Shown piece by piece: positions 6,253-41,434 of a stretch of 41,595 nt of DNA (the stretch's first letter is position 1; the number at the start of each line of letters is the position of its first letter). Under the pieces are notes generated by a model. It made no database searches, had not been told where the DNA came from, and saw nothing but the letters and a program-made list of their open reading frames with translations. Made by a program: the position numbers and the translations under genes. Source of the stretch: Nevskia sp. (GTDB lineage: Bacteria; Pseudomonadota; Gammaproteobacteria; Nevskiales; Nevskiaceae); the NCBI GenBank assembly GCA_016779605.1, contig JADHNH010000020.1, forward strand, positions 1-41,595. Direction: 5' to 3'.

Positions 6253-6396
6253 GCGGCGGCGGCGGTTCTTGGGTAATCTTCACATCTTTGCCGGGGCGTC
6301 GGTCGCCGCTGGCTTTACGCGGCCGGCGCAGCCTGGCCTTGCGGGCAAGCGGATGCGCGGCGGCCGCCCGGCCGACCCGTGCAGGAGGTTGCAGCG
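6253..6396 (+). other. Short cdsA-rseP gap where dxr is expected
   Basis: Pseudomonads and xanthomonads carry dxr (about 1.2 kb) between cdsA and rseP; enterobacteria have it between frr and uppS. Both junctions are closed here. The frr-uppS junction overlaps, and this one has about 144 bp that encodes nothing resembling the Dxr N-terminus (GSTGSIG) or any conserved domain. I see no clear terminator or promoter in it. It contains several short GC-rich runs and ends with the rseP Shine-Dalgarno. Confidence 0.7.
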
Positions 6397-25448: not shown

Positions 25449-26168
25449 ATGAACCACGGAGACCTCGGCATCGTGGTGGCCATGGCCACCGAGGCGCGTG
25501 CGCTCACGCCGCTGCGCCCGGTGCCCAACCAGGTGGCCGAAATCGCGCCGGGGGTGCACCTGGTGCTGTGCGGCATCGGCCCGCGCGCGGCGGGCAACGC
25601 CGCCCGCGTGCTGCTCGACAGCGGCGTGCGCGCGCTGGCGGTGCTGGGCGTGGCCGGTGGACTGGACCCGCGCTTCGGCTCCGGCGAGCTGCTGGTGCCG
25701 AACGAACTGGTCGACGACGCCGGCAGCCGCTTCGCGGCCGATCCGGCCTGGCGCGCGCGGCTGGTCGCGGTGCTCGCGGGGCGCTGCCGCGCCGAAACGC
25801 TGCTGACCGTGCGCGAGCCTCTGCTGACCCCGCGCGCCAAGGCCGAAGCGCGCCAGCGCCACGGCGCCAGCGCGGTGGACATGGAAGGCGCCGCGGTGGC
25901 GCAGATCGCCTGGCAGTACGAAGTGCCGTTCCTGATGGTGCGGGCGGTGGCCGACACCGCGCTGCACGTAATTCCGCCGGCGCTGGCCGGCACCGTCGAC
26001 CGCTTCGGCCGGCCGCGCCCGCGCGCGCTGCTTGCCGCGATGGCGCGCCGGCCGGCGCTGCTGCTGTGCCTGCCGGGACTGGCGCGCTCGATGTCGCGCT
26101 CGATGGAGGCGCTGCGCCAGGTGGTGCGCCTGGCCGGCCCGGGGCTGGCCTGGGACCGGGCGGCATGA
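25449..26168 (+). CDS. hpnG: Hopanoid-associated phosphorylase/nucleosidase HpnG
   Basis: HpnG removes adenine from adenosylhopane to give ribosylhopane, the step after HpnH. The protein has the nucleoside-phosphorylase/MTA-SAH nucleosidase fold. It begins with GIVVAMATEARAL, then LCGIGPRAAGNAA, LGVAGGLDPRFGSGELLVP and the purine-pocket SAVDMEGAAVAQIA with the ribose-contacting Met-Glu pair. The length is 239 residues. The last bases overlap the hpnA start (ATGA). Its partner hpnH is 15 kb away in the third operon of the same locus. Confidence 0.9.
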   Translation: MNHGDLGIVVAMATEARALTPLRPVPNQVAEIAPGVHLVLCGIGPRAAGNAARVLLDSGVRALAVLGVAGGLDPRFGSGELLVPNELVDDAGSRFAADPAWRARLVAVLAGRCRAETLLTVREPLLTPRAKAEARQRHGASAVDMEGAAVAQIAWQYEVPFLMVRAVADTALHVIPPALAGTVDRFGRPRPRALLAAMARRPALLLCLPGLARSMSRSMEALRQVVRLAGPGLAWDRAA

Positions 26169-27169
26169 GCGCCGGCGCGCGGCCGCTGGCGCTGGTCACC
26201 GGCGCCACCGGCTTCGTCGGCTCGGCGGTGGCGCGCGTGCTGCTGGCCGAGGGCTTCGCAGTGCGCGCGCTGGCGCGCCGGGGCTCGGAGCGGCGCAACC
26301 TGGAAGGACTGGACCTGCAGGTGGCCGAGGGCGACCTGACCGACCCGGCCACGCTCGCGCCGGCCTGCGCCGGCTGCCAGGCGCTGTTCCACGTCGCCGC
26401 CGACTACCGCCTGTGGGCGCCCAGGCCGGACGAGGTGTACCGCGCCAACGTCGACGGCACGCGCGCGATCATCATGGCGGCGCAGCGCGCCGGCGTGCGC
26501 CGCATCGTCTACACCAGCAGCGTGGCTACCCTGGGCATCCCCAAGGACGGCAGCCCCGGCGACGAGGACACCCCGGTGGGCCTGGCCGACATGATCGGCC
26601 ACTACAAGCGTTCCAAGTTCCTGGCCGAGGAGGCGGCGCGCGAGCTGGCGCAGGCCGGCGCACCGGTGGTGATCGTCAACCCGTCCACGCCGATCGGCCC
26701 GCGCGACCTCAAGCCCACGCCGACCGGCCGCGTGGTGCGCGATGCCGCCGCCGGGCGCATGCCGGCCTACGTCGACACCGGCCTGAACATCGCGCATGTC
26801 GACGACGTCGCCCGCGGCCACTGGCTGGCCTACGGCAAGGGCCGGATCGGGCAGCGCTACGTGCTCGGCGGCGAAGACCTGAGCCTGCGCCAGATCCTGG
26901 CCGTGGTGGCCGGCCTGGTCGGCCGCAAGCCGCCGCGCATCCGCCTGCCGCACGCCGCCGTGCTGCCGATCGCCTACGCTGCCGAAGCGGTCGCGCGGCT
27001 GACCGGGGTGGCGCCGGTGGCGACGGTGGAGGAAGTGCGCATGTCGAAAAAGCGCATGTTCTTTTCCAGCCGCAAGGCCGAGCGCGAGCTGGGCTACATC
27101 CACCGGCCGGCGCGGCAGGCGCTGGAAGACGCCGTCGCCTGGTACCGCCAGAACGGCTACCTCGACTGA
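26165..27169 (+). CDS. hpnA: Hopanoid-associated sugar epimerase HpnA
   Basis: HpnA is an extended short-chain dehydrogenase of the NAD-dependent epimerase family, found with hopanoid genes; its exact substrate is not settled. The Rossmann motif VTGATGFVGSAVARVL starts near residue 12. The active-site Ser/Thr lie in YTSSVATLG and the YxxxK catalytic pair in GHYKRSKFLAEE. NPSTPIGPRDLKPTPTG is a family-typical segment. The length is 334 residues. It is translationally coupled to hpnG by ATGA. An open frame runs upstream through hpnG but is a shadow. Confidence 0.92.
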   Translation: MSAGARPLALVTGATGFVGSAVARVLLAEGFAVRALARRGSERRNLEGLDLQVAEGDLTDPATLAPACAGCQALFHVAADYRLWAPRPDEVYRANVDGTRAIIMAAQRAGVRRIVYTSSVATLGIPKDGSPGDEDTPVGLADMIGHYKRSKFLAEEAARELAQAGAPVVIVNPSTPIGPRDLKPTPTGRVVRDAAAGRMPAYVDTGLNIAHVDDVARGHWLAYGKGRIGQRYVLGGEDLSLRQILAVVAGLVGRKPPRIRLPHAAVLPIAYAAEAVARLTGVAPVATVEEVRMSKKRMFFSSRKAERELGYIHRPARQALEDAVAWYRQNGYLD

Positions 27170-27183
27170 AGCGGCGCCGCGGA

Positions 27184-27861
27184 ATGAGCGCAGCCGCGCC
27201 GCGGCGCTGCCTGCTGGCGGCCGCAGTGATGATGTTGGCAGCCTGCGCCACGCCGCCGCCGCGGCCGGACCCCGGCGCCGTCGGCAACAGTACCACCCCG
27301 CCCGAGCGCATCTACGTGCTGCGGCGCGGCTGGCACACCGACGTGGTGCTGCAGGTAGCAGACCTGCGGCCGCCGCTGTCCGCGATCGCCGGCGACTTTC
27401 CCGGTGCGCGCTACCTGGTGTTCGGCTTCGGCGACCGCCATTACGTGCTGGCCACGCACAAGGACATGGGCGAGCTGCTGCTGGCGCCGCTGCCGGGCGC
27501 CGGGCTGGTGCTGGTGAGCGCGCTGCAGGGCACGCCCGAGGAAGTGTACGGCAGCGGCCACGTGGCGCCGGTCGACATCGCCCCGGAGCAGGCCGGCCGC
27601 ATCGGCGATTTCATCTGGAGCTCGCTGCAGCACGATCCGGCCGGCACCACCCATCCGTATCTCGCCGGCCGCTACGCCGGCAACCTGTACTACGCCTCCA
27701 CCGACCGCTACAGCGGCCTGTTCACCTGCAACACCTGGACCGCCCGCGCGCTCAAGGCCGGCGGTATCCACGTCAACAGCTTCGGCGTGCTGTTCGCCGG
27801 TCAGGTATGGGACCAGGTCGGCGCCGCGCGGCCTGCCCATCCGCCGCAGGCAGACCATTAG
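27184..27861 (+). CDS. DUF2459 family lipoprotein
   Basis: The 225-residue protein has a lipoprotein signal with lipobox LAAC (Cys21), followed by a Pro-rich linker. The rest resembles the DUF2459 (TIGR02117-like) family: IYVLRRGWHTDVVLQ, FGFGDRHYVLATHKDMGE, YYASTDRYSGLFTCNTWTARALK. The conserved His in GWHTD and the Cys in FTCNTW could be a catalytic pair, but no activity is established for the family to my knowledge. It follows hpnA by 14 bp on the same strand and is probably the last gene of the squalene-hopene operon. Asp11 is not relevant; the residue after Cys21 is Ala, compatible with outer-membrane sorting. Confidence 0.85.
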   Translation: MSAAAPRRCLLAAAVMMLAACATPPPRPDPGAVGNSTTPPERIYVLRRGWHTDVVLQVADLRPPLSAIAGDFPGARYLVFGFGDRHYVLATHKDMGELLLAPLPGAGLVLVSALQGTPEEVYGSGHVAPVDIAPEQAGRIGDFIWSSLQHDPAGTTHPYLAGRYAGNLYYASTDRYSGLFTCNTWTARALKAGGIHVNSFGVLFAGQVWDQVGAARPAHPPQADH

Positions 27862-27959
27862 AATCGTCGCCGGAACCGGCGCGCCGGCAGTCGCGCAGCG
27901 CCGCTGCGCTCAGCGCGGCCGCGCGGCTCCATCACTTGATTCTGCGCGGGCGAGCGTCC

Positions 27960-27988
27960 TTGTTGCGAGGGACACCGCGAGCTAGCAT
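27960..27988 (+). promoter_or_regulatory. Candidate promoter for the DUF2059 gene
   Basis: TTGTTG (27960-27965) and TAGCAT (27983-27988) are spaced by 17 bp, about 100 bp before the gene. Each hexamer matches consensus at 4 of 6 positions or so. The 27862-27959 stretch upstream is GC-rich with possible hairpins (CCGGAACCGG) but nothing I would call a gene. Confidence 0.35.
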
Positions 27989-28087
27989 TGATCCATAAGA
28001 AATCGACAAGTCCCGTGCGGCAAGACCGGCGGCGGGGCAGCGTGCGCGACATCCAGATAACTGCTGTCCGATCCGGGGAGAAGGCTC

Positions 28088-28630
28088 ATGGCTGCGACGA
28101 AGCTCTTGCGAATGATTCCGGCGTTTGTCATCGCGGTGATGTCCTCGACTGTGCTGCAGCCGGCGTTGGCGGACGAATCCACACCGAGCGCAGCATCGGT
28201 CAAAGAGCTCATCGCGGTCATGCAGTCGCAAAAGCTGATCGACAGTGCATGGAATCAGCTGGATTCGGTGATGCAGGCGGGGATGCAGCAGGCGCTCGCA
28301 GGGCAGACGATTACCGTTCAGCAACAGGTCGTCATCAGTGAAATGCGCTCGAAGATGATCGCCATCTTCAAGGAGGACATGAAATGGGAAGTGTTGGAGC
28401 CGATATTCATCGACATCTATCAGAAGTCGTTCTCGCAACAGGAAATCGACGGAATGCTGGCATTCTATAAATCGGATACCGGCAAAGCGGTGATCGCGAA
28501 GATGCCGCTGGTGATGCAGAATTCGATGCAGGCGATGAAAGGCCGCATGGAGGTGATGGCGCCGAAGTTGCGGCAGTTGGAGCAGGACACGATCTTGCAG
28601 TTGAAGGCGATCCAAAAGAAACCGAATTGA
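28088..28630 (+). CDS. Exported DUF2059 domain protein
   Basis: The 180-residue protein has a cleavable signal peptide (cleavage after QPALA, residue 28). The mature part is a helical DUF2059-type domain: VKELIAVMQSQKLIDSAWNQ, then FSQQEIDGMLAFYKSDTGKA, which is the family's most recognisable stretch, then a Met-rich helix. The function is unknown. A strong Shine-Dalgarno (GGGGAGAAGG) precedes the ATG. Its base composition is visibly lower in GC than the flanking hopanoid genes, with A/T third positions, suggesting separate acquisition. The next gene is convergent. Confidence 0.85.
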   Translation: MAATKLLRMIPAFVIAVMSSTVLQPALADESTPSAASVKELIAVMQSQKLIDSAWNQLDSVMQAGMQQALAGQTITVQQQVVISEMRSKMIAIFKEDMKWEVLEPIFIDIYQKSFSQQEIDGMLAFYKSDTGKAVIAKMPLVMQNSMQAMKGRMEVMAPKLRQLEQDTILQLKAIQKKPN

Positions 28631-28637
28631 CGGAGTT

Positions 28638-28681
28638 GTGGTTCGCGCCGCGTAGTCAGCTTCGCAACGCTCGCGAACCAC
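28638..28681. terminator. Stem-loop between convergent genes
   Basis: GTGGTTCGCG (28638-28647) and CGCGAACCAC (28672-28681) are perfect 10-bp complements with a 24-nt loop. It sits in the 75-bp gap between the convergent DUF2059 and ferritin-like genes, where a bidirectional terminator is expected. Neither side has a T-run, so the mechanism is uncertain. Confidence 0.5.
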
Positions 28682-28705
28682 CCGGGCTTAGAGATCAATA
28701 ATGGC

Positions 28706-29605
28706 TTAGCTCTTCGGCAAGAAACGCCGCACCAGCCGCGCCAGGCGCGGCACCGTCGCCGGCCGCAGCAGGCGCCGGTCGTAGCCCGCCATGCGCCGCT
28801 CGTTCTGCGCCAGGCACAGCTCGACCAGGGCGCGCGGCTTGAGCTCCGCGCCCACCGCACCGCTGCCGGTGACGGTGAAGTTGGCGTCGCGGGCGTTGCC
28901 CTGTCCGTCGATGCCCTTGGCGATGCCGAGGCGCTCCCACACCAGGAACAGCCACGCCGCCCAGGTCTTCAGCCAGAACAGCGGCCGCCGCCACGTCGGC
29001 AGGTTGGCACGGTACCAGGCCACCCAGTTGACGAAGAACAGGATGTGGCGCGCCTCTTCCTGGATCACCGGCTCGAAGGTCTCCACCAGCTCCGGCGGAA
29101 AATAGCCGGAGCGGCGCGCCGCCTCGAACAGGCCGAAGGCGAAGAAGCTGTCGATGCATTCGGAATAGCCGGTGACCAGCCAGGCCCATACCGGGTCGCG
29201 CGGCGGCGGGTAGGCCGGTTCCGGCGCCAGCGGGATGCCGTAGGCCTGCACCAGCTTGCTCAGCACCACCTTGTGCCGCGCCTCCTCGCCGGCGTCCATG
29301 TCCAGGGCCTGGCGCAACAGTGGGTCGGTGACGCGCGCGGCGAAGGTCTGCACGCGCACGGCGGCGCGCCCTTCGGTCTGCACCGCGATGTCCCAGATCG
29401 GCAGCGAGGTGACGCGGCGCAAGGCGTCCGCCGGCAGCTGCGGCCAGTCGATCACCGCAGGCTTGTAGGGGTTGTGTGTTTCCAGCAGCATGCGGCAGAA
29501 CAGCCGCTTGTGCGCGTCCGATCCAATGCGTACCGGGCCAGGCTCGGTGCCTTGCCAGTGGCGCATGGCGAAATCGGCGCGGTCGATGTTGACGCCATCA
29601 TCCAT
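28706..29605 (-). CDS. Ferritin-like di-iron protein in the hopanoid operon
   Basis: This 299-residue protein has a full set of ferritin-like di-iron ligands in the expected order: E78 in helix 1, E108-A-R-H111 (from GEEARH), E149 in helix 3 (YSECID), and E184-A-R-H187 (from QEEARH). Spacings of about 30 and 35 residues fit a four-helix bundle. A hydrophobic segment near residues 210-225 (FWLKTWAAWLFLVW) could bind membrane. I do not recognise a named enzyme. ATG 29605 is preferred because GGAG lies 7 nt upstream; ATG 29617 lacks one. It is the last gene of the leftward hpnI-J-K-L unit, so a lipid-oxidising role is a fair guess only. Confidence 0.85.
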   Translation of the reverse strand: MDDGVNIDRADFAMRHWQGTEPGPVRIGSDAHKRLFCRMLLETHNPYKPAVIDWPQLPADALRRVTSLPIWDIAVQTEGRAAVRVQTFAARVTDPLLRQALDMDAGEEARHKVVLSKLVQAYGIPLAPEPAYPPPRDPVWAWLVTGYSECIDSFFAFGLFEAARRSGYFPPELVETFEPVIQEEARHILFFVNWVAWYRANLPTWRRPLFWLKTWAAWLFLVWERLGIAKGIDGQGNARDANFTVTGSGAVGAELKPRALVELCLAQNERRMAGYDRRLLRPATVPRLARLVRRFLPKS

Positions 29606-29661
29606 TGCCAGCTCCATTATTCGTGGATGGGGGCTACCGCACTGCCGGATATTTTAATTGC

Positions 29662-29684
29662 GGCTGGTGCCGGGTGCACCAGCC
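29662..29684. terminator. Stem-loop between hpnL and the di-iron gene
   Basis: GGCTGGTGC and GCACCAGCC form a perfect 9-bp stem with a 5-nt loop. It is followed on the minus strand by GCAATTAAAATA rather than a T-run, so it is not a classic terminator. The TAAAAT there could be a -10 for the di-iron gene. The 29618-29757 gap holds nothing else I can identify. The gap suggests the di-iron gene may be differently expressed from hpnL. Confidence 0.4.
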
Positions 29685-29757
29685 GGGACGGCCGCAGTCG
29701 ATCGGGCGCGAACGCCGGTGACGCCGCCGCGGACGGCCGGCAGGGCCGGCGCGCCGC

Positions 29758-30777
29758 TCAGCCGCGGCTTTCGGTCGGCGCGGCGGCCTTGCGCAGCAGC
29801 GCCAGCTTCAGGCGGGTGCCTTCGACCCACTGCCAGCTCAGCAGCGCGGGCACGCCGAACAGCAGCTCGCGCATGCGCTTGGCCAGCGACAGCGAGATGG
29901 CGACGTCGTTGCCGATGCCGGCCATGCTGCCGAACACCACCAGGCCGGCTTCCTGCACGCCCAGTCCGGCCGGCACGAAGAAGGCGAGGTTGCGCAGCGC
30001 CTGGGTCAGGGCCTCGATGGCGATCGCCGCCTGCGCACTCACCGGGTTGCCCAGCAGGTACAGCGCCAGCCAGGTCTCGAACGCGCCGAGGACGAAGCCG
30101 GACAGCTGCCAGGCCAGCGCCGCCAGCAGGCGCCAGTGGCGCTGGTACAGCGCGCGGATCTCGGCGTCGAGGTTGCTGCCGCCGATCAGGGCGGCCAGCC
30201 GGCTGCGGCTGCCGAGCATCGCCTCGGCGAGCTTTTCCAGGCGCTCGAACACCGAGCCGTAGCGCAGCAGGGCGCCCAGCAGCACCGGCATCGGCAGGCT
30301 CAGCGCCAGCCCGGTGAGGATGCTCCAGCCCAGGTGCGAGGAGGCGGTGACCGCGATCAGCAGCACCAGCCCGAGCGCCGAGAAGATGTACTGGTTGATC
30401 ACCGTCAGCAGCACCTCCACGATCACGCTGGCGGCGGTGGCCGCGCCGTCCAGGCCGCGCAGCTTGACCAGGCGGATGCCGACGATCTCGCCGCCCACGC
30501 CGACCGCCGGCAGCAGCCGGCTGACCGCCTCGCGCACGGTGGCCACCCAGAACAGGAACGGCAGGTTCGCGCGGCGCTGCGGGTCGCGCGGCGCCAGCAG
30601 CGTGCGCCAGCCGGCGGTGTCGAGCAGCAGCGGCAGGGCATGGAACGGCACCAGCAGCAGCAGCGCCCAGCCGGCGTTGCCCAGCAGCGCGGCGATGCCG
30701 CCCACGCCCTGGTGCAGCACCAGCGCGGTCATTACGGCCAGGCCGAGCAGCCCGGCGAGGTAAGGGAGCGCTTTCAT
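29758..30777 (-). CDS. hpnL: Hopanoid-associated membrane protein HpnL
   Basis: HpnL belongs to the lysylphosphatidylglycerol-synthetase transmembrane/AglD-like flippase-related family and is found with hopanoid genes, where a transport or flipping role is suspected. The 339-residue product has about 8 hydrophobic segments. It contains FLFWVATVREAVSRLLPAVG, VGGEIVGIRLVKLRGLDGA and ALRNLAFFVPAGLGVQEAG, which are characteristic of the family. The ATG at 30775-30777 overlaps the hpnK stop (ATGA). An in-frame extension upstream is a shadow of hpnK. Confidence 0.88.
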   Translation of the reverse strand: MKALPYLAGLLGLAVMTALVLHQGVGGIAALLGNAGWALLLLVPFHALPLLLDTAGWRTLLAPRDPQRRANLPFLFWVATVREAVSRLLPAVGVGGEIVGIRLVKLRGLDGAATAASVIVEVLLTVINQYIFSALGLVLLIAVTASSHLGWSILTGLALSLPMPVLLGALLRYGSVFERLEKLAEAMLGSRSRLAALIGGSNLDAEIRALYQRHWRLLAALAWQLSGFVLGAFETWLALYLLGNPVSAQAAIAIEALTQALRNLAFFVPAGLGVQEAGLVVFGSMAGIGNDVAISLSLAKRMRELLFGVPALLSWQWVEGTRLKLALLRKAAAPTESRG

Positions 30778-31619
30778 GCCGCCAGCGCGCCGCCGGCGAA
30801 GTCGGCGAAGCCGCCGCGGCGCAGGTCCAGCCGCGCCACCGCCGCCCGCACGCGCGGCGACAGCAGCGCGGCCAGCTCGTCGGCGTGGCGGTAGCCCTGC
30901 ATCGACGGTGCGATCGCCGCGCCGGAAACGGTGGCGGGATGCAGGTAGATCTCGGTGATGCCGCCGCCCAGGCAATCCAGCGCGCGCAGCAGCGTGGCCT
31001 CGTCCATGGCGCCGCTGCGCGCGATGCCGACGACGTGGTCGTTGTAGGCGATGCCGGCGCGGCGCAGGCGCCAGGCCAGCAGCCCGAGCCAGGGCCGCAG
31101 CAGCGCCGGCGCCTGCGCCTCCAGCGGCAGGCGCACCGCGCGCAGGCCGTAGCGGCGGCCGATCCGCAGGATCAGCGACAGCACCGTGGGGTGCAGGTGG
31201 AAATGCTTGTGCGCGTTGACGTGATCCAGCGCCAGCCCGGTGGCGGCGTAGGCTTCGAACTGCGCCTGGATTTCCGCGGCGAGCTGGCGCCGCACCTGCG
31301 GCAGGAAGAAGAAGCGGCAGCCGTCGAGCGCCATGGCGTCGCCGAAGCGGCCTTGCGCATCGACGAGCAGGGGGATCCGGCGCGGCGGCAGTACCGCCGG
31401 GCCGTCGGCCAGCACCAGGTGCAGGCCGACGCGCAGCTTGGGCAGGCGGCGTGCACGCGCCACCGCGTCGGCCGCCGCCGGCGCGCCGACCATCAGGCTG
31501 GCGGCGGTGAGCACGCCTTCGCGGCTGGCTTGTTCGACCGCTTCGTTGACCGCCGGGTGCAAGCCGAAATCGTCGGCGGTGACGATCAGGCCCCTCGGGC
31601 GGGAATCGGGAATCGGCAA
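30774..31619 (-). CDS. hpnK: Hopanoid deacetylase HpnK
   Basis: HpnK removes the acetyl group from N-acetylglucosaminyl-bacteriohopanetetrol, following HpnI. It has the YdjC/ChbG carbohydrate-deacetylase fold: IVTADDFGLHPAVNEAV (metal Asp), VGLHLVLADG, and HVNAHKHFHLHPTVL with the metal His residues. The length is about 281 residues. The only plausible start is the TTG at 31617-31619, which lies within a heptamer repeat, so the first residues (MPIPDSRP) are repeat-encoded; no ATG precedes the conserved GLIVTADDFG. No clear Shine-Dalgarno is seen. It overlaps hpnL by 4 nt. Confidence 0.88.
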   Translation of the reverse strand: MPIPDSRPRGLIVTADDFGLHPAVNEAVEQASREGVLTAASLMVGAPAAADAVARARRLPKLRVGLHLVLADGPAVLPPRRIPLLVDAQGRFGDAMALDGCRFFFLPQVRRQLAAEIQAQFEAYAATGLALDHVNAHKHFHLHPTVLSLILRIGRRYGLRAVRLPLEAQAPALLRPWLGLLAWRLRRAGIAYNDHVVGIARSGAMDEATLLRALDCLGGGITEIYLHPATVSGAAIAPSMQGYRHADELAALLSPRVRAAVARLDLRRGGFADFAGGALAA

Positions 31620-31630
31620 ACGGGAATCGC
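31600..31630. repeat. GGGAATC heptamer repeat at the hpnK start
   Basis: GGGAATC units at 31601, 31608 (as GGGAATC) and 31622 flank a degenerate copy. The plus strand reads GGGAATCGGGAATCGG, then CAAACGGGAATCGC. It is the same unit as in the rnhB tail. On the minus strand it supplies the hpnK start codon and the PIPDSRP residues. Confidence 0.75.
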
Positions 31631-31634
31631 TAAA

Positions 31635-31658
31635 GCCGGGGCGCTAACGATCCCCGGC
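31635..31658. terminator. Stem-loop between hpnJ and hpnK
   Basis: GCCGGGG (31635-31641) and CCCCGGC (31652-31658) form a 7-bp stem with a 10-nt loop in the 44-nt gap between the two genes. There is no T-run. It could stabilise or process the hpnIJKL message. Confidence 0.35.
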
Positions 31659-31663
31659 CTCGA

Positions 31664-33091
31664 TCACGCCTCGTGTGCGCGCAGGAAGCGGAAGAACTCC
31701 ACGCCTTCGCGCAGGCGGCGCTTCATCATTTCCCAGCTCGCCAGCATCTCGCGGACGATCTCCCAGATCTTGCTCGGGCGGAAGTAGAAGCGCTTGTAGA
31801 ACTCTTCCATGGAATGGAAGATTTCTTCCTTGGACAGGTGCGGATAGCTGATCGCGGCGAGCTGCACGCCTTTCTCGTTGACCAGGTTGACCGCGTCGTT
31901 TTCCTTGAGCCAGCCGTTCTCCACCGCCTGCTTGTACAGCGTGGTGCCGGGGTAGGGCGCCGCCAGCGACACCTGGATGGTGTGCGGGTTGATGTCCTTG
32001 GCGAACTGGATGGTCTTCTGGATCGTCTCCTTCGTCTCGCCGGGCAGGCCGAGGATGAAGGTGCCGTGGATCATGATGCCGAGCTTGCGGCAGTCCTGCG
32101 TGAAGCGCCGCGCGATGTCGGTGCGCAGGCCCTTCTTGATGTTGTGCAGGATCTGGTCGTCGCCGGACTCGTAGCCCACCAGCAGCAGGCGCAGGCCGTT
32201 GTCCTTCATGATCTTGAGGGACTCGTAGGGCACGTTGGCCTTGGCGTTGCAGGACCAGGTCATGCCGAGCTTGCCCAGGCCGCGGGCGATCTCGTGCACG
32301 CGCTCCATGTTGGAGCTGTCGGTGAAGGTGTCGTCGTCGAACATGATCTCCCGCACCTCGGGCATGTTCTCCTTGATCCACTTCACCTCGTCGATGACGT
32401 TCTGCGCCGAGCGCACGCGGTAGCGGTGGCCGCCCACCGTCTGCGGCCACAGGCAGAAGGTGCACTTGGAGCGGCAGCCGCGGCCGGTGTAGAAGCTCAC
32501 GTACGGGTGCTTCAGGTAGCCGATGAAGTAGTTCTCGATCTTCAGGTCGCGCTTGTACACCGGCGACACGAACGGCAGCGCGTCCATGTCCTCGATGGTG
32601 GGCCGCGGCGCGTTGTGCTTGACCGTGCCGTCCGGCAGCTTGTAGCTCAGGCCCAGGATCTCGGCGTAGGGCCGCCCCTCGGCGACTTCCTTGCAGGTGT
32701 AGTCGAATTCCTCGCGCGCGACGAAGTCGATGGCCGGGCTCGCCTTGAGCGAGCCGGTCGGGTCCACCGCCACCTTGGCGCCGACCAGGCCGATGACGAT
32801 GCCGGGCTTGCGCTGCTTGAGCAGCTCGCCGAACTTGGCATCCGTCGGGAACGAAGGCGTGCTGGTGTGCATGATCACCAGGTCGTAGCCTTCGGCGATC
32901 TTCAGCGTTTCCTCCACGCCGATCTCGTCGGCGGGCGCGTCCAGGACGCGGCTATCGGGCACCATGGCCGCCGGCTGCGCCAGCCAGGTCGGGAACCAGA
33001 ACGACTTGATTTCGCGCTTGGCCTGGTACCGGCTGCCGGCGCCGCCGTCGAATCCGTCAAAAGAAGGGGCCTGCAAAAACAAAGTCTTCAT
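31664..33091 (-). CDS. hpnJ: Radical SAM protein HpnJ
   Basis: HpnJ is a radical SAM enzyme, of the class with an N-terminal cobalamin-binding-like domain, that contracts the sugar ring of glucosaminyl-bacteriohopanetetrol to the cyclitol ether. The N-terminus MKTLFLQAPSFDGFDGGAG is family-typical. The cluster motif is CRSKCTFC (CxxxCxxC), followed by LWPQTVGGHRYRVRS. FILGLPGETKETIQ is the usual radical SAM C-terminal motif. The ATG at 33089-33091 gives 475 residues and the conserved start; a TTG four codons upstream is less likely. It lies between hpnI and hpnK in the leftward operon. Confidence 0.93.
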   Translation of the reverse strand: MKTLFLQAPSFDGFDGGAGSRYQAKREIKSFWFPTWLAQPAAMVPDSRVLDAPADEIGVEETLKIAEGYDLVIMHTSTPSFPTDAKFGELLKQRKPGIVIGLVGAKVAVDPTGSLKASPAIDFVAREEFDYTCKEVAEGRPYAEILGLSYKLPDGTVKHNAPRPTIEDMDALPFVSPVYKRDLKIENYFIGYLKHPYVSFYTGRGCRSKCTFCLWPQTVGGHRYRVRSAQNVIDEVKWIKENMPEVREIMFDDDTFTDSSNMERVHEIARGLGKLGMTWSCNAKANVPYESLKIMKDNGLRLLLVGYESGDDQILHNIKKGLRTDIARRFTQDCRKLGIMIHGTFILGLPGETKETIQKTIQFAKDINPHTIQVSLAAPYPGTTLYKQAVENGWLKENDAVNLVNEKGVQLAAISYPHLSKEEIFHSMEEFYKRFYFRPSKIWEIVREMLASWEMMKRRLREGVEFFRFLRAHEA

Positions 33092-33147
33092 AAGGATGTT
33101 CAAAGGTTCCGTCTAATGCCAAAAGGGTGTTGCACCGCTGCCGCGCG

Positions 33148-34293
33148 TCAAGGTCCGGGCCGCGGCTCAGGCCGCGCGGCACCGGCGGCGTCCAGGGTCT
33201 GGCCGCGCCAGCGCACCTGCCAGCCCGCCAGTGCGGCGGCCCACTCGGCGAACAGGAGAAAATCCCTGGGTATGGTCAAGGCCAGACCGCCGGGCAAACA
33301 GCTCTCCGAATTTGCTTTTCGCTGCGCATAATGTAGCACAAGCCGGGCGGCGGCTCCGGCTGCGGCCAGCGCCGCGCAGAGCTCGGAGCGGGCCAGCAGC
33401 AGGCCGGCGGCCAGCACCGGGAAGGTGAACGCGGGAAACGTCAGCGCAAAGCCGATCGTCTCGATCGAGCGGATCGTGCGCAGCCAGCGCAGCTCGTGCG
33501 CCCACAGCTCGGCGAGGCTGGCTTCGACCACGTCGGTGCGCACCGTCACCTCCGACAGCACGGTGCGCAGGCCCAGGCGCCGGGTCAACTCGCCGAGCCA
33601 GAAGTCGTCGGCCAGCAGGTCGCGCAAGGCTTCCAGGCCGCCGGCCGCGGCCAGCGTGTCGCGGCGCACGGCGATGGTGGAACCGAAGGCGAAGCGGCGC
33701 GAGCCGAGCAGGTGGGCCAGCCGCACCGAGGGCGCAAACCAGTCGTCGATGAACTGCGCGCCCAGCCGCGACCAGAATCCGCCCACCGGGCGGCCGAAAT
33801 ACAGGCAGGTGACGATGCCCACGCCGGGGTCCGCCAGCGGCGCGGCGACGCGCGCCAGGTAGTCCGGCGGCACCTCGATGTCGCTGTCGGACAGCACCAG
33901 GCGGTCATGCCGCGCGTGCGGGAACATGTTGAGCAGGTTGCCCACCTTGAGGTTCCTGCCGTGGCTGCGTGGATCCGCCACCAGGCCGATGTCGCGGCGC
34001 GGAAACTCCGCCTGCAGCCGCCGCACCACGGCGACCGCCGGATCCTGCGCGTCGCGCACGCCGAACAGCAGTTGGTAATCAACTCCCTGCTGCAGGCAGA
34101 AGCTGCGCAGGTTTTCGTACAGGCGCGGCTCGGCGCCGCACAGCGGCTTGAGCACGGTGACAGCGGCGCTGTCGCCGGGCGGCGCGGCGGCAGGGCGCGC
34201 GGCGCGCAGCACCGCAAGCAGTGCCAGCAGGGCATAGACGGCGGCGGAGGCGGTGAGGCCGGTCCCGATCAGCGTCGGGAGGTCAGGGCTCAT
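33148..34293 (-). CDS. hpnI: Hopanoid glycosyltransferase HpnI
   Basis: HpnI transfers N-acetylglucosamine to bacteriohopanetetrol, starting the cyclitol-ether head group. It resembles ceramide glucosyltransferase (GT21-like). An N-terminal membrane helix is followed by VTVLKPLCGAEPRLYENLRS. The DxD motif lies in LVLSDSDIEVPPDYL, a further acid in LLADDFWLGEL, and HELRWLRTIR matches the (Q/R/H)xxRW motif. Two hydrophobic segments are near the C-terminus. The length is 381 residues. It is the first gene of the leftward unit and is divergent from the DUF2147 gene across about 60 bp. Confidence 0.92.
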   Translation of the reverse strand: MSPDLPTLIGTGLTASAAVYALLALLAVLRAARPAAAPPGDSAAVTVLKPLCGAEPRLYENLRSFCLQQGVDYQLLFGVRDAQDPAVAVVRRLQAEFPRRDIGLVADPRSHGRNLKVGNLLNMFPHARHDRLVLSDSDIEVPPDYLARVAAPLADPGVGIVTCLYFGRPVGGFWSRLGAQFIDDWFAPSVRLAHLLGSRRFAFGSTIAVRRDTLAAAGGLEALRDLLADDFWLGELTRRLGLRTVLSEVTVRTDVVEASLAELWAHELRWLRTIRSIETIGFALTFPAFTFPVLAAGLLLARSELCAALAAAGAAARLVLHYAQRKANSESCLPGGLALTIPRDFLLFAEWAAALAGWQVRWRGQTLDAAGAARPEPRPGP

Positions 34294-35131: not shown

Positions 35132-36160
35132 ATGAATTCACGCCCGCGTCGCGAGCTACCGGAGCAACTTTTCGCCGCCGCCCAAGCCCAGCCCAACATC
35201 GCCTTGGTGAAGTATTGGGGCAAGCGCGATGCTGCGTTCAACCTGCCGGTGGTCGGCTCGATCTCGATTACGCTCGATTCCCTGTGGACCCGCACCGCGG
35301 TGCGCTTCGACGCGGGGCTTGCGCAAGATCGGTTCGAACTCAACGGCAAGGCCGACGCCGAGGAGGCGCGCCGCGTCGGCGCCTGCCTGGACCTGCTGCG
35401 CCAGCGCGCCGGGGTGAGCTGGCGCGCCAGCGTATCCAGCCGCAACAACTTCCCCACCGCCGCCGGGCTGGCCTCGTCGGCATCCGGCTTCGCCGCCCTG
35501 GTCACGGCCGGCGCGCAGGCGCTCGGCCTGCGCATCGACGACACCGAAAAATCCGCCCTGGCGCGCCGTTGCTCCGGCTCGGCGGCCCGCTCGATCTTCG
35601 GCGGCTACGTCGAGTGGGCGCGCGGCGAACGCGCCGACGGCGCCGACTCGGTGGCGCGCGAACTGCTGCCGGCCGCGGCCTGGCCGCTGCGGGTGGCGGT
35701 GGCCATCACGTCCACCGCGGCCAAGGAAGTCGGTTCCGGCCCCGGCATGCGGCGCACCGCCGAAACCTCGCCGTTCCAGCAGGCCTGGGTCGACACCCAG
35801 GAAAGCGACCTCGCCGCCGCGCGCGCGGCGATCACGGCACGCGACTTCGCCGCGCTGGCGGAAATTTCCGAGCACAGCTGCCTGAAAATGCACGCCCTGG
35901 CGCTGGCGGCGAGGCCCGGCCTGATCTACTGGAACGGCGCCACGGTCGAGGGCATGCGCCGGGTGCGCGCGCTGCGTGCGCAGGGCGTGCCGGTGTTCTT
36001 CACGGTCGACGCCGGCCCGCAGGTCAAGGCAGTGTGCGAACCGCAGGCGCTGCCGCGGGTCGCCGCCGCCCTGCGCGAGGTGCCGGGCGTGCTCGAAGTG
36101 GTCGACACCGGGCTGGGCGAGGGCGCCCGCGCGATTCCGGCGGAGGCCCTGGCGGCATGA
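35132..36160 (+). CDS. mvaD: Diphosphomevalonate decarboxylase
   Basis: This GHMP-family enzyme makes IPP from mevalonate 5-diphosphate with ATP, the last step of the classical mevalonate route. The motif NIALVKYWGKRD is diagnostic, as are NLPVVGSISITL, the Ser/Gly-rich PTAAGLASSASGFAAL loop and CSGSAARSIFGGYVEW. The catalytic Asp is D293 in FFTVDAGPQVKAV. Its presence argues for a true decarboxylase rather than an inactive relative or a mevalonate-3-kinase type. The length is 342 residues. The stop overlaps the next gene's start (ATGA), so the two are coupled. Confidence 0.95.
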   Translation: MNSRPRRELPEQLFAAAQAQPNIALVKYWGKRDAAFNLPVVGSISITLDSLWTRTAVRFDAGLAQDRFELNGKADAEEARRVGACLDLLRQRAGVSWRASVSSRNNFPTAAGLASSASGFAALVTAGAQALGLRIDDTEKSALARRCSGSAARSIFGGYVEWARGERADGADSVARELLPAAAWPLRVAVAITSTAAKEVGSGPGMRRTAETSPFQQAWVDTQESDLAAARAAITARDFAALAEISEHSCLKMHALALAARPGLIYWNGATVEGMRRVRALRAQGVPVFFTVDAGPQVKAVCEPQALPRVAAALREVPGVLEVVDTGLGEGARAIPAEALAA

Positions 36161-37230
36161 TGGAAGTCCAGGCCAGCGCCCCCGGCAAGCTGGTGCTGCT
36201 GGGCGACTACGCGGTGCTGGAAGGCGCGCCTGCGCTGGTGATGGCGGTGAACCGCCACGCCCGCGTGCGCATCGCCCCGCTGGCCGGGGGCATGTGCGAA
36301 GTGACGGCGCCGGACCTCGGCCTGGGACCGGTGCGGATGCAGCTGGGCGAGGACGGCGCGGTGACCTGGCAGGCCGCCGCCGCGGACGCCGAGCGCCTGC
36401 GCCTGGTCGAGCAGACCCTCCGCGGGCTGGCGCAGGACGGTCTGCTGCCGGCGCGCGGCCGCGGCTTTGCCCTGCACCTGGACACGTCCGGCTTCTTCGA
36501 CCAGGTCGGCGGCGGCCGCGAAAAGCTCGGCCTGGGTTCCAGTGCGGCGCTGACGGTGGCGCTGGCTTCGGCGATGGCGGTGTTCGCCGGCCGTGGCGCG
36601 GCCACCGCCAACCGCCGGGTCTGGCTCGAGCGCCTGCTGCAGCTGCACCGCGATTTCCAGGGCGGGCAGGGCAGCGGCGTCGACGTGGCGGCGAGCCTGG
36701 TCGGCGGCCTGATCTCCTACCGCCTGGAAGCGGGCGGGCATCCGCGCTTCGATCCGCTGGCCTGGCCGGCCGGCGTGCATCCGCTGTTCGTCTGGACCGG
36801 CACGTCGGCTTCCACCGCCGGCTTCCTCGGCCGCCTGGCGCAATGGCGCAAGACCCACGCGAGCCAGTACGACGGCCACATGCGCGAGCTCGGCGCGATC
36901 GCCACGGCGGCGATCGAGGCCGCGCGCGGCGGCCGCGCCGGCGAGTTCGTCGAAGGCGCGGCGCGCTACGCCGACGCCCTGGCCCTGTTCGGCGCCGCCT
37001 GCGGGCTGGAGATCTTTTCGGCGCCGCACCGGCAGCTGGCCGCGCTGGCGCGCGAATGCGGCACCGGTTACAAGCCCTGCGGCGCCGGCGGCGGCGATTT
37101 CGGCGTGGTGTTCGCGCAGGAACCCGCGGCCCTGGCGCGCGCTCAAAGCCGCATCGCGCAGGCCGGTTTCCGCTGCGTGCCGCTGGCCGTGGATGACTAC
37201 GGCCTGAGCCTGGAGTACAAGAGTTTTTGA
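36157..37230 (+). CDS. Phosphomevalonate kinase (GHMP family)
   Basis: This kinase phosphorylates mevalonate 5-phosphate to the diphosphate. The GHMP N-terminal motif SAPGKLVLLGDYAVLEGAPA, the ATP-binding REKLGLGSSAALTVALASA, and the motif GYKPCGAGGGDFGVVF, close to the PMK-type GAGGGD signature, support PMK over galactokinase-like relatives. HRDFQGGQGSGVDVAAS also fits PMK. The start ATG at 36157 overlaps the mvaD stop; the ATG at 36160 is one codon later. The length is 357 residues. A 9-bp intercistronic hairpin lies between it and the next gene. Confidence 0.92.
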   Translation: MMEVQASAPGKLVLLGDYAVLEGAPALVMAVNRHARVRIAPLAGGMCEVTAPDLGLGPVRMQLGEDGAVTWQAAAADAERLRLVEQTLRGLAQDGLLPARGRGFALHLDTSGFFDQVGGGREKLGLGSSAALTVALASAMAVFAGRGAATANRRVWLERLLQLHRDFQGGQGSGVDVAASLVGGLISYRLEAGGHPRFDPLAWPAGVHPLFVWTGTSASTAGFLGRLAQWRKTHASQYDGHMRELGAIATAAIEAARGGRAGEFVEGAARYADALALFGAACGLEIFSAPHRQLAALARECGTGYKPCGAGGGDFGVVFAQEPAALARAQSRIAQAGFRCVPLAVDDYGLSLEYKSF

Positions 37231-37254: not shown

Positions 37255-37323
37255 TGCCCGAATCGGTAGCGAGCGTCAGAAGCGTTTGAGCGGTGCCCTT
37301 TCGATCAGTCGAGGATGCGATAC

Positions 37324-39603
37324 ATGTCAGCTGAAAAATTGCCGCAGGATGCCCAGGACAAGGCGCGCTTTCCGGAGTTCTACAAGCTGTCGGTGGCGGA
37401 CCGCGTGCGGGTGATCCACGAGCGCGGCTGGCTGTCCGGCGAGGATTACCAGGCCCTGATCTCCGGCGACCACACGCTGAAGATCAACAAGGCCGACAAG
37501 ATGATCGAGAACGTCGTCGGCGTGATGGGCCTGCCGGTCGGCCTGGGCCTGAACTTCCTGATCAACGGCCGCGACTACGTGGTGCCGCTGGTGGTGGAGG
37601 AGCCCTCGATCGTGGCGGCCTTGTCCTCGGCGGCCAAGGTGGTGCGCGGCGCCGGCGGCTTCGCCACCGAAAGCACCGAGCCGGTGCTGATCGGCCAGGT
37701 GCAGGTGGTGGACGTGCCGCACGTGGCCAAGGCGCAGGCGGCGCTGCTGCAGCGCAAGGGCGAGATCCTCAACCTCGCCAACAGCCTGCACCCGCAGATG
37801 GTGGCGCGCGGCGGCGGCGCCAAGGACCTGGAAGTGCACCTGCATGCGCGGCCGGAAGGTGGCGACATGGTGGTGGTGCACCTGCTGGTGGACACCCGCG
37901 ACGCGATGGGCGCCAACCTGGTCAACACCATGTGCGAGGGCGTGGCCTCGCTGGTGGAGTCGATCACCGACGGCCGCGTGTTCCTGCGCATCCTGTCCAA
38001 CCTCACGGACCGCTCGATGGTGCGCGCGCGCTGCGTGATCCCGTTCGAGAAGCTGGCCGGCAAGGGCTACACCGGCGAGGAGGTGCGCGACGGCGTGATC
38101 CTGGCCAACGAGTTCGCCAGCATCGACCCGTACCGCGCCACTACCCACAACAAGGGCGTGATGAACGGCGTCGACGCGGTGGCGCTGGCCACCGGCAACG
38201 ACTGGCGCGCCATCGAGGCGGCCGCCCATGCCTACGCCGCGCGCGGCGGCCGCTACACCTCGCTGACGCGCTGGTACAAGGGTCCGAACGGCGAGCTGGT
38301 CGGCGAGATCGAGGTGCCGCTCAAGGTCGGCACCGTCGGCGGCCCGCTGCAGTCCAATCCCACGGTGGCGCTGAACCTGCGCCTGCTGGGGGTGAAGTCG
38401 GCGCGCGAGCTGGCCGAGGTGATGGGCGCGGTCGGCCTGGCGCAGAACTTCTCGGCGCTGCGCGCACTGACCACCGAAGGCATCCAGCAGGGCCACATGA
38501 CCCTGCACGCGCGCAGCGTGGCGATCGCCGCCGGCGCCACGCCGGAGATCTTCGACACCGTGGTCGACCGCCTGGTCGAAAGCGGCGAGATCAAGATCTG
38601 GAAGGCGCAGGAAATCGTCGTGCAGGTGCGCAAGGAGGCGCGCGGCGCGGCCGAGTCGGTGATCCCCGAGCAGCATGCCTGCGGCCATGGCAAGATCATC
38701 CTGCTGGGCGAGCACGCGGTGGTGTACGGCAGCCACGCCATCGCCGCGCCGGTGCCGCTGGCGGTGCGCGCGGCGGTGCAGGACACGCAGTCCGGCGGGG
38801 TGGACATGATCATCCCGCGCTGGGGCGTGGAATACCGGCTGCACCGCGACCCGGCGCACCGCGACTCGTTCCAGCGCTCGCTCGGCATCATCTTCGACAC
38901 CCTGGGCCTGACCGACCGCTCGGTGCGCATCGAGGTGTTCCCGGCGGTGCCCCGCGCCCGCGGCCTGGGCGGCTCGGCGGCGATGGCGGTGGCGATCATC
39001 CGCGCGCTGGACCAGCACTTCAAGCTCGGCCTGAGCGACGAGGAAGTCAACGCGCTGGCCTACAAGTGCGAGCAGGTGGCGCACGGCACGCCGTCGGGCA
39101 TCGACAACACCGTGGCGACCTACGGCAAGTTCCTGCTGTACAAGCGCGATCCTTCCGGCGCGACGCCGCCGATGTTCCGCGAGATGGCGGTGCCCAAGCC
39201 GATTCCGATCGTCATCGGCATCAGCAGCAAGGAAAGCCTCACCGCCAAGACGGTAGGCGGCGTGCGCACCGCCTGGCAGCGCAACCCGGAGCTGTACGAG
39301 CGCATCTTCCGCGAAATCGACCAGCTCACCCTGCAGGGTGTCGAGGCGATACAAAAAAACGACTTGCAGCGCCTCGGCGAGCTGATGAACGTATGTCACG
39401 GCTTGCTCAACGCCCTGGGCGTGTCGAGCTGGGAAATCGAGGAGCTGGTGCAGATCTCGCGCGAGCACGGCGCCCTCGGCGCCAAGCTCACCGGCGGCGG
39501 CGGCGGCGGCTCGATCATCGCGCTGTGCCCGGAGCGTCCGGACAAGGTGATCGCGGCGCTGCGCGACGCCGGCTACCAGGCGATGGAGGTGAACATTGGA
39601 TAG
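37324..39603 (+). CDS. HMG-CoA reductase / mevalonate kinase fusion protein
   Basis: This single 759-residue chain joins two consecutive steps of the mevalonate pathway. Residues 1 to about 449 are a class II HMG-CoA reductase close in motif order to the Pseudomonas mevalonii enzyme: PLVVEEPSIVAAL (E92/E93), THNKGVMNG (K277), ATGNDWRAIEA (D293) and GHMTLHARSVA (H395). Residues from about 450 are mevalonate kinase: CGHGKIILLGEHAVVYGSHA, the ATP loop RARGLGGSAAMAVA, HGTPSGIDNTV (D594) and KLTGGGGGGSIIAL. There is almost no linker. The start at 37324 is chosen because GAGG lies 9 nt upstream; the ATG at 37315 would abut it. All catalytic residues are kept in both halves, so both are probably active. 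Confidence 0.95.
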   Translation: MSAEKLPQDAQDKARFPEFYKLSVADRVRVIHERGWLSGEDYQALISGDHTLKINKADKMIENVVGVMGLPVGLGLNFLINGRDYVVPLVVEEPSIVAALSSAAKVVRGAGGFATESTEPVLIGQVQVVDVPHVAKAQAALLQRKGEILNLANSLHPQMVARGGGAKDLEVHLHARPEGGDMVVVHLLVDTRDAMGANLVNTMCEGVASLVESITDGRVFLRILSNLTDRSMVRARCVIPFEKLAGKGYTGEEVRDGVILANEFASIDPYRATTHNKGVMNGVDAVALATGNDWRAIEAAAHAYAARGGRYTSLTRWYKGPNGELVGEIEVPLKVGTVGGPLQSNPTVALNLRLLGVKSARELAEVMGAVGLAQNFSALRALTTEGIQQGHMTLHARSVAIAAGATPEIFDTVVDRLVESGEIKIWKAQEIVVQVRKEARGAAESVIPEQHACGHGKIILLGEHAVVYGSHAIAAPVPLAVRAAVQDTQSGGVDMIIPRWGVEYRLHRDPAHRDSFQRSLGIIFDTLGLTDRSVRIEVFPAVPRARGLGGSAAMAVAIIRALDQHFKLGLSDEEVNALAYKCEQVAHGTPSGIDNTVATYGKFLLYKRDPSGATPPMFREMAVPKPIPIVIGISSKESLTAKTVGGVRTAWQRNPELYERIFREIDQLTLQGVEAIQKNDLQRLGELMNVCHGLLNALGVSSWEIEELVQISREHGALGAKLTGGGGGGSIIALCPERPDKVIAALRDAGYQAMEVNIG

Positions 39604-40189
39604 CTCTGCGCTGTACAGCCGGGAGCGCGTCGTCTCCTTCGACGACGAGCCCCTGGTGCTGGTGGACGGCCAGGACCGCGAGGTCGGCTTCCTCGACAAG
39701 GCCGCGGCGCATCGCGGCGAGGGGCAGCTGCACCGGGCGTTCTCGCTGTTCATCTTCAACTCGGCCGGAGAACTGCTGCTGCAGCAGCGCGCCACCGGCA
39801 AGCGGCTGTGGCCGGGTTACTGGTCGAACACCTGCTGCAGCCACCCGCGCCGCGGCGAAACCGTGGACCAGGCCATCCACCGGCGCCTGGAGGAAGAGCT
39901 CGGCCTGAAGTGCCCGCTGCAGTTCCTGTTCAAGTTCGAATACCACGCGCAGTTCGACGCCGACGGCGCCGAGCACGAGCTGTGCTGGGTCTACGCCGGG
40001 CATTGCGACCGCGCGCCGCGCACCAACTTCAACGAGATCGCCGCGGTGCGCTATGTCGCGCCCGCTGCGCTCGACGCCGAAATCGCCGCGCGCCCCGAGA
40101 CTTTCACGCCCTGGTTCAAGCTGGAATGGGCACGGATCCGTAGCCAGCACGCGCGGCTGTGCGGTGCAGCAAACGCGCCGGGATTGTGA
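39596..40189 (+). CDS. idi: Isopentenyl-diphosphate isomerase, type I
   Basis: This Nudix-fold enzyme interconverts IPP and DMAPP, which is essential in a mevalonate organism since the pathway makes only IPP. The catalytic Cys is in YWSNTCCSHPRRGET, the Nudix helix in AIHRRLEEELGL, and the second acid in GAEHELCWVYAG (the E116-like site of the E. coli enzyme). The length is 197 residues. The start is an unusual TTG at 39596, supported by GGAGGTGA about 5 nt upstream and overlapping the fusion gene's stop by 8 nt. hpnH follows after 114 bp. Confidence 0.95.
   Translation: MDSSALYSRERVVSFDDEPLVLVDGQDREVGFLDKAAAHRGEGQLHRAFSLFIFNSAGELLLQQRATGKRLWPGYWSNTCCSHPRRGETVDQAIHRRLEEELGLKCPLQFLFKFEYHAQFDADGAEHELCWVYAGHCDRAPRTNFNEIAAVRYVAPAALDAEIAARPETFTPWFKLEWARIRSQHARLCGAANAPGL

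Positions 40190-40303: not shown

Positions 40304-41434
<1,131 letters not shown>

Follow-up and report, generated by a model that had tools for sequence, protein, structure and literature searches.

An in-frame fusion of HMG-CoA reductase and mevalonate kinase within a mevalonate operon of Nevskia sp. and its relatives in other bacteria

The class II HMG-CoA reductase (HMGR) of Pseudomonas mevalonii (structures 1qax and 9dcp), a catabolic enzyme, resembles the N-terminal half of the fused protein described here in its catalytic residues and its flap, and is 51% identical to it in structural alignment. However, it is a stand-alone, NADH-specific enzyme without a kinase (PMC10070635). The mevalonate kinases (MVKs) of Leishmania major (2hfs/2hfu) and Methanosarcina mazei (6mde, 4hac) share the GHMP fold and active-site motifs of the C-terminal half, but are stand-alone proteins with 31–34% identity to it in structural alignments. 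A natural fusion of HMGR to another enzyme of the same pathway is known in MvaE of Enterococcus faecalis (PMC10070635), and the mvaE and IspDF fusions are both named in a review of bacterial isoprenoid pathways from 2026, in which HMGR is the step that limits the rate of the mevalonate pathway and is regulated (PMC13001223). The partner in MvaE is an acetoacetyl-CoA thiolase on the N-terminal side, whereas the HMGR described here is followed on its C-terminal side by MVK, which acts one step downstream; the contrast with mvaE that was drawn in an initial sequence-only reading of this DNA is sound, and the Pfam and NCBIfam matches of the fused protein include no thiolase domain. The genes of Corallococcus praedator (L122) have the same order and frame as the fusion, with the MVK frame following the HMGR stop, but encode two proteins that are 54% (HMGR) and 37% (MVK) identical to the corresponding halves.

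The sequence-only reading knew of no characterised HMGR-MVK fusion. We likewise found no description in a collection of openly licensed PMC papers, and none in the 2026 review under the terms searched (PMC13001223); the main text of a survey of frequent metabolic gene fusions is without mevalonate or HMG-CoA (PMC4921024). However, the gene is not an isolated oddity but a member of a widespread family, with at least 112 fused loci in addition to that described here (109 distinct sequences, several of them cut by contig ends).

The fusion is encoded near the right end of a 41,595-nucleotide contig of Nevskia sp. (JADHNH010000020.1; hereafter the window), and the features discussed are listed in Table 1. 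The earlier proposal that HMGR and MVK are joined in frame holds: the reading frame is open throughout and both halves score above NCBIfam cut-offs, with TIGR00532 (HMGR) matching residues 13–396 (416 bits; cut-off 260) and TIGR00549 (MVK) matching residues 455–734 (247 bits; cut-off 163). The Pfam matches are PF00368, PF00288 and PF08544. An in-frame ATG three codons upstream of the assigned start would give a 762-residue product, although the motif GAGG at 37311–37314, nine bases before the downstream ATG, favours the latter. Neither a stop nor a frameshift lies between the halves, in the window or at the other fused loci, and this single frame at so many loci excludes an assembly error. Synonymous changes predominate in both halves (Ka 0.04–0.14 and Ks 0.30–0.62 for HMGR; Ka 0.07–0.18 and Ks 0.27–0.81 for MVK; six comparisons), and Ka well below Ks indicates purifying selection on both. 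One related locus (L004, in a genome that is 84% complete) has an in-frame TAG within the HMGR half with the junction open, and is either a pseudogene or contains a sequence error.

Table 1. Positions of the fused gene, its parts and neighbouring features in the window
Feature	Position	Strand	Basis and remarks
HMGR-MVK fusion gene, 759 aa	37324..39603	+	Open frame, Pfam and NCBIfam; alternative start 37315
Class II HMGR half, residues 1–437, including the C-terminal flap (about 388–438)	37324..38634	+	TIGR00532, alignment to 1qax, Foldseek
Linker, residues 438–452	38635..38679	+	Model confidence below 50 at 441–449
Mevalonate kinase half, residues 453–759, GHMP kinase	38680..39600	+	TIGR00549, Foldseek
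Diphosphomevalonate decarboxylase (MVD)	35132..36160	+	TIGR01240, 292 bits, cut-off 171
Phosphomevalonate kinase (PMK)	36157..37230	+	Best match TIGR01220, 105 bits, below cut-off 166; overlaps MVD by 4 nt
Isopentenyl-diphosphate isomerase type 1 (IDI)	39596..40189	+	TIGR02150, above cut-off; overlaps the end of the fusion
HpnH, adenosyl-hopene transferase, downstream of the operon	40304..41434	+	TIGR03470, 529 bits
HpnI, hopanoid glycosyltransferase, upstream neighbour	33148..34293	-	TIGR03472, 456 bits
Empty dxr site, flanked by the frames of cdsA and rseP	6253..6378		126 bases only

Alignment to 1qax places E83, K267, D283 and H381 of the P. mevalonii enzyme at E93, K277, D293 and H391 of the fusion, and we take D283 to be a catalytic residue. 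E83, K267 and H381 are catalytic in P. mevalonii HMGR (PMC10070635). Among the catalytic residues named in the initial reading, E92/E93, K277, D293 and D594 do not vary across the 47 fused proteins in the alignment (47 of 113, including that of the window), and neither do H391, K457 and E583; the HMGR histidine is H391 in this alignment and not H395 as had been named, the latter being a second, different histidine that is likewise invariant. A three-helix flap is complete in the predicted model (helices 387–402, 410–420 and 425–443), and Foldseek superposes the HMGR half with its flap on the P. mevalonii structures 9dcp and 1qax with target TM-scores of 0.91–0.92 over 419–425 columns. The flap carries the catalytic histidine and closes and reopens during the HMGR cycle (PMC10070635), and it had been pointed out that it must tolerate the appended kinase; as judged from sequence and model the flap is complete, and the kinase follows it on a short, low-confidence hinge. 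The residues that determine NADH use in P. mevalonii, D146, L148 and L152 (PMC10070635), are absent, their positions being occupied by H156, Q158 and R162. Because these determinants are replaced and R162 is also present in the NADPH-specific HMGR of S. pneumoniae, NADPH is predicted as the cofactor, despite the 'degradative' label of the family. The N-terminal half is thus assigned as a class II HMGR, which would reduce HMG-CoA.

Within the C-terminal half we take K457, the loop at 547–553, E583, D594 and the glycines at 724–729 to be ATP-loop, catalytic and C-terminal glycine motif positions of MVK. The loop reads GLGGSAA in the window and GLGASAA or GLGSSAA in some relatives, and the glycines at 724–729 are nearly all invariant in the aligned proteins, with K457 and D594 fully so. 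Foldseek matches this half to the Leishmania MVK 2hfu (target TM 0.81) and the M. mazei MVK 6mde (0.87), and we assign it as a mevalonate kinase, which would phosphorylate mevalonate. By sequence, its closest solved relative is the L. major enzyme, rather than a bacterial or archaeal one.

The description of the halves as having almost no linker is roughly right, with about 15 residues between them. Linker length varies among the family, the spacing between two flanking motifs ranging from 21 to 70 residues at the 81 of 103 fused loci that could be measured (one or both motifs were not found at the other 22). An AlphaFold2 model built with 47 fused sequences has a mean pLDDT of 86.7 and a pTM of 0.59, with confidence below 50 at residues 1–11, 63–66 and 441–449. 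The structure prediction suggested in the initial reading therefore yields two confident domains but no confident orientation of one to the other; together with the Foldseek results it suggests that both domains are intact. Of the 48 distinct sequences of solved structures that match the profile, none has a chain spanning both halves.

The fusion is the third gene in an operon with the order MVD-PMK-[HMGR-MVK]-IDI, and the PMK identity is softer than the others because its TIGR01220 score is below the cut-off. The operon is set among hopanoid genes, those upstream (25449–34293) encoding an HpnG-like protein (below cut-off), HpnL, HpnK, HpnJ and HpnI. The same operon genes are found beside the fusion at distant loci. 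A full-length relative of HMG-CoA synthase is encoded on another contig (C78) of the window's genome and is 59% identical to that of a genome of the same genus (G013), where the gene lies about 3 kb past the fusion (L157:2486-3955); the window's contig ends 2 kb past the fusion. The HMG-CoA synthase of this lineage (L157:2486-3955 and relatives) is divergent, with weak Pfam scores and frames of 493–576 aa.

Presence of the fusion within the order Nevskiales coincides with absence of the usual bacterial (MEP) route to isoprenoids. Of the order's 85 genomes, 36 have the gene, full-length or nearly so in 34; in G022 it is cut within the kinase, and in G027 a contig end leaves only the beginning of HMGR, for which fusion is assumed. 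DXR and IspH were both sought in all of these, and neither was found in any of the 36, whereas both are present in 47 of the 49 genomes without the fusion gene. The two remaining genomes (G012, 76% complete, and G015, 88% complete and of the window's genus) yielded no fusion gene, DXR or IspH, and no HMG-CoA synthase with the lineage's own synthase as query. The 36 genomes belong to two families, so the pattern represents few independent events. HMG-CoA synthase-like matches (PF08540) occur in 32 of the 85 genomes, all within the 36, with 17 over the cut-off. A search of six genomes with the lineage's own synthase added G000, G022 and G026; in G068, which is 99% complete and has the fusion, no synthase was found by either search.

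Loss of the MEP pathway is also apparent in gene order. The window contains the cluster tsf-pyrH-frr-uppS-cdsA-rseP-bamA-lpxD-lpxB in canonical order but without dxr (cdsA is below cut-off and frr was named by position and by comparison with dxr-bearing genomes), whereas three dxr-bearing genomes of the order used for comparison (L163, L164, L165) have dxr in the interval that separates cdsA from rseP. No DXR match was found in the window's genome. The lack of DXR and IspH in fusion-gene genomes of the order and the empty dxr site suggest that, apart from the fusion, the cell very probably has no HMGR or MVK. No second match to either half was found in the window's genome at E ≤ 0.001, although a distant second kinase could be missed since the same search did not report the PMK of the operon.

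The association does not extend to all bacteria with the fusion. Seventeen fusion-bearing genomes, chosen from 66 named fused loci, were checked for DXR and IspH: DXR is above the cut-off in nine, below it in one (Dyella psychrodurans) and absent in seven, and IspH is present in eight. Both Rhodanobacter genomes and all four Cryobacterium genomes checked have DXR and IspH, and neither was found in five checked genomes with an unfused HMGR. Since the fusion coexists with the MEP pathway elsewhere, MEP loss is a trait of some lineages. The genome of D. psychrodurans, which has the fusion, contains a DXR-like frame between cdsA and rseP (L198:3383-4543; 256 of 316 bits) that deviates from two normal DXRs in conserved motifs, and no IspH match; judged by its sequence, the frame looks like a decaying MEP remnant. 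No DXR match was found in D. monticola.

Fused loci are present in several phyla and include named isolates of Dyella, Rhodanobacter, Salinisphaera and Cryobacterium. A scan of named genomes gave 585 loci, of which only the best 80 were considered and from which no frequencies are therefore drawn; 66 of these 80 are fused (Pseudomonadota 43, Calditrichota 8, Actinomycetota 6, Acidobacteriota 3, Planctomycetota 2, Ignavibacteriota 1, and 3 without a phylum), as assigned from record titles, with many being metagenome bins. Among the 14 unfused loci of the best 80, MVK is the next gene in seven (five Myxococcota and two Bacillota) and no MVK match was found in the examined stretch of the other seven. 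Even draws of genomes gave nine full-length fusions (including the window and two others of the order) and one more cut by a contig end among 369 genomes of the class, and two with the fusion, window included, among 398 genomes of the phylum. Five loci of the actinobacterial genus Cryobacterium (L103, L105, L106, L116 and L129) carry a fusion closest to that of Salinisphaera. Viral contigs gave no match to exact peptide patterns from the window's protein, which detect close relatives only, and of 58 plasmid records with a match none covers 80% of the query.

The profile search and trees proposed in the sequence-only reading recover one fused clade for each half. Loci with no more than 330 matched HMGR residues or 200 matched MVK residues were left out of the trees, and the careful trees are subsets of 57 and 54 rows. 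The quick HMGR tree has 111 rows (142 distinct sequences, less 32 that were near-duplicate, short or long-branched, plus the window), with all 76 fused rows forming one side of one branch (SH-aLRT 100); the 37 fused rows of the careful HMGR tree are similarly separated (100/100). For MVK, a single branch separates 83 fused rows in the quick tree (96) and 41 in the careful tree (96/90); L114, whose kinase is truncated where the contig ends, was left out. All loci were found with the fusion as query and the MVK tree contains only 14 stand-alone rows, so that an unfused member of the clade could have been missed. The window's sequence is nearest to Dyella, with good support in HMGR (95; 99/84) and weak support in MVK (90; 77/22), although its genome shares a genus with an uncultured member of the Sinobacteraceae (G026, CAIJRD010000012.1), and Cryobacterium and Salinisphaera group together in all four trees. 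Both placements argue for horizontal transfer, and one fused clade for each half suggests one origin; the fusion probably arose a single time, with later horizontal spread of the whole operon.

Some Myxococcota provide a plausible precursor, in the form of an adjacent pair of HMGR and MVK genes in the same frame. Myxococcota are sister to the fused HMGRs in the quick tree (support 94) but not in the careful tree, and the relation is not rejected by an AU test (p 0.415). Among 146 genomes of the phylum at least seven have the fusion, at least one more has a cut fusion, and at least 13 have full-length matches broken by exactly one in-frame stop. At 12 such loci the reading frame of HMGR continues past its stop as that of MVK, with the first possible MVK start 0–27 bases past the stop in eight and 54–93 bases past it in four. 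The adjacent pairs at L128, L130 and L134 are in different frames; searches that read through stops favour same-frame pairs. Perhaps a stop that separated two neighbouring genes in the same frame was lost, giving rise to the fusion.

Alternative explanations concern both the origin of the gene and the reality of the fusion. Stop loss might have occurred several times, fusing the same two neighbouring genes independently, and the in-frame pairs in at least 13 of 146 myxococcal genomes would make this easy; however, the fused rows fall on one side of one branch in both careful trees, at 100/100 and 96/90, and repeated fusion is improbable. That a frameshift or missed stop has merged two separate genes might be suspected because the window's draft genome consists of 188 contigs and the related L004 has a stop in its HMGR half. 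This artefact is refuted by the number of genomes with the fusion, isolates of four genera among them, as well as opposed by purifying selection in both halves, and we give it practically no credence.

Two further alternatives concern function. The HMGR half could run backwards in mevalonate catabolism with the kinase incidental, given that the best NCBIfam match, TIGR00532, is labelled 'degradative' and NAD, and that, among solved structures, the NADH-using P. mevalonii enzyme is closest to it in sequence. Such a role is very hard to reconcile with an operon containing PMK, MVD and IDI, the lack of an MEP pathway in the same genomes and the missing NADH determinants, and we consider it highly improbable. 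Physical channelling, with the kinase docked on the HMGR oligomer and receiving mevalonate straight from it, perhaps at a pace set by the flap to which it is joined as this opens and closes, is possible but unlikely: the histidine-bearing flap does close and reopen during the cycle (PMC10070635), and the kinase follows directly after it in the model, but the domains have no confident orientation (pTM 0.59) and the variable linker is as in a simple tether. A more elaborate channelling machine, with a kinase on the mobile flap coupling release to phosphorylation, kinase feedback throttling the reductase, and spread of the fusion driving MEP replacement in several lineages, appears somewhat more doubtful again. 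A tether with fixed stoichiometry accounts for the facts.

We consider it likely, and hold this with good confidence, that the fusion is a bifunctional biosynthetic enzyme encoded in an MVD/PMK/fusion/IDI operon of a lineage without the MEP pathway, that it probably has a single origin followed by horizontal spread, and that it acts as a tether rather than a tunnel. The N-terminal half would form mevalonate from HMG-CoA, with NADPH as the probable reductant, and the C-terminal half would convert mevalonate to mevalonate 5-phosphate, with a short hinge after the mobile HMGR flap joining the two. The operon, together with an HMG-CoA synthase encoded elsewhere, would provide the IPP and DMAPP from which hopanoids and every other isoprenoid are made, and a mobile mevalonate operon probably replaced the MEP pathway in this lineage. 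The fusion would likely benefit the cell by fixing the two enzymes at a 1:1 ratio and by capturing mevalonate locally.

Under the 'degradative' label of the best family model, neither the kinase nor the biosynthetic role of proteins of this type is apparent. For engineering, a natural HMGR-MVK fusion is a 1:1 module that is ready to use, and it allows mevalonate channelling to be tested directly. The fusion also marks bacterial lineages that exchanged the MEP pathway for the mevalonate pathway, and MEP inhibitors such as fosmidomycin should fail in lineages that rely on the latter.
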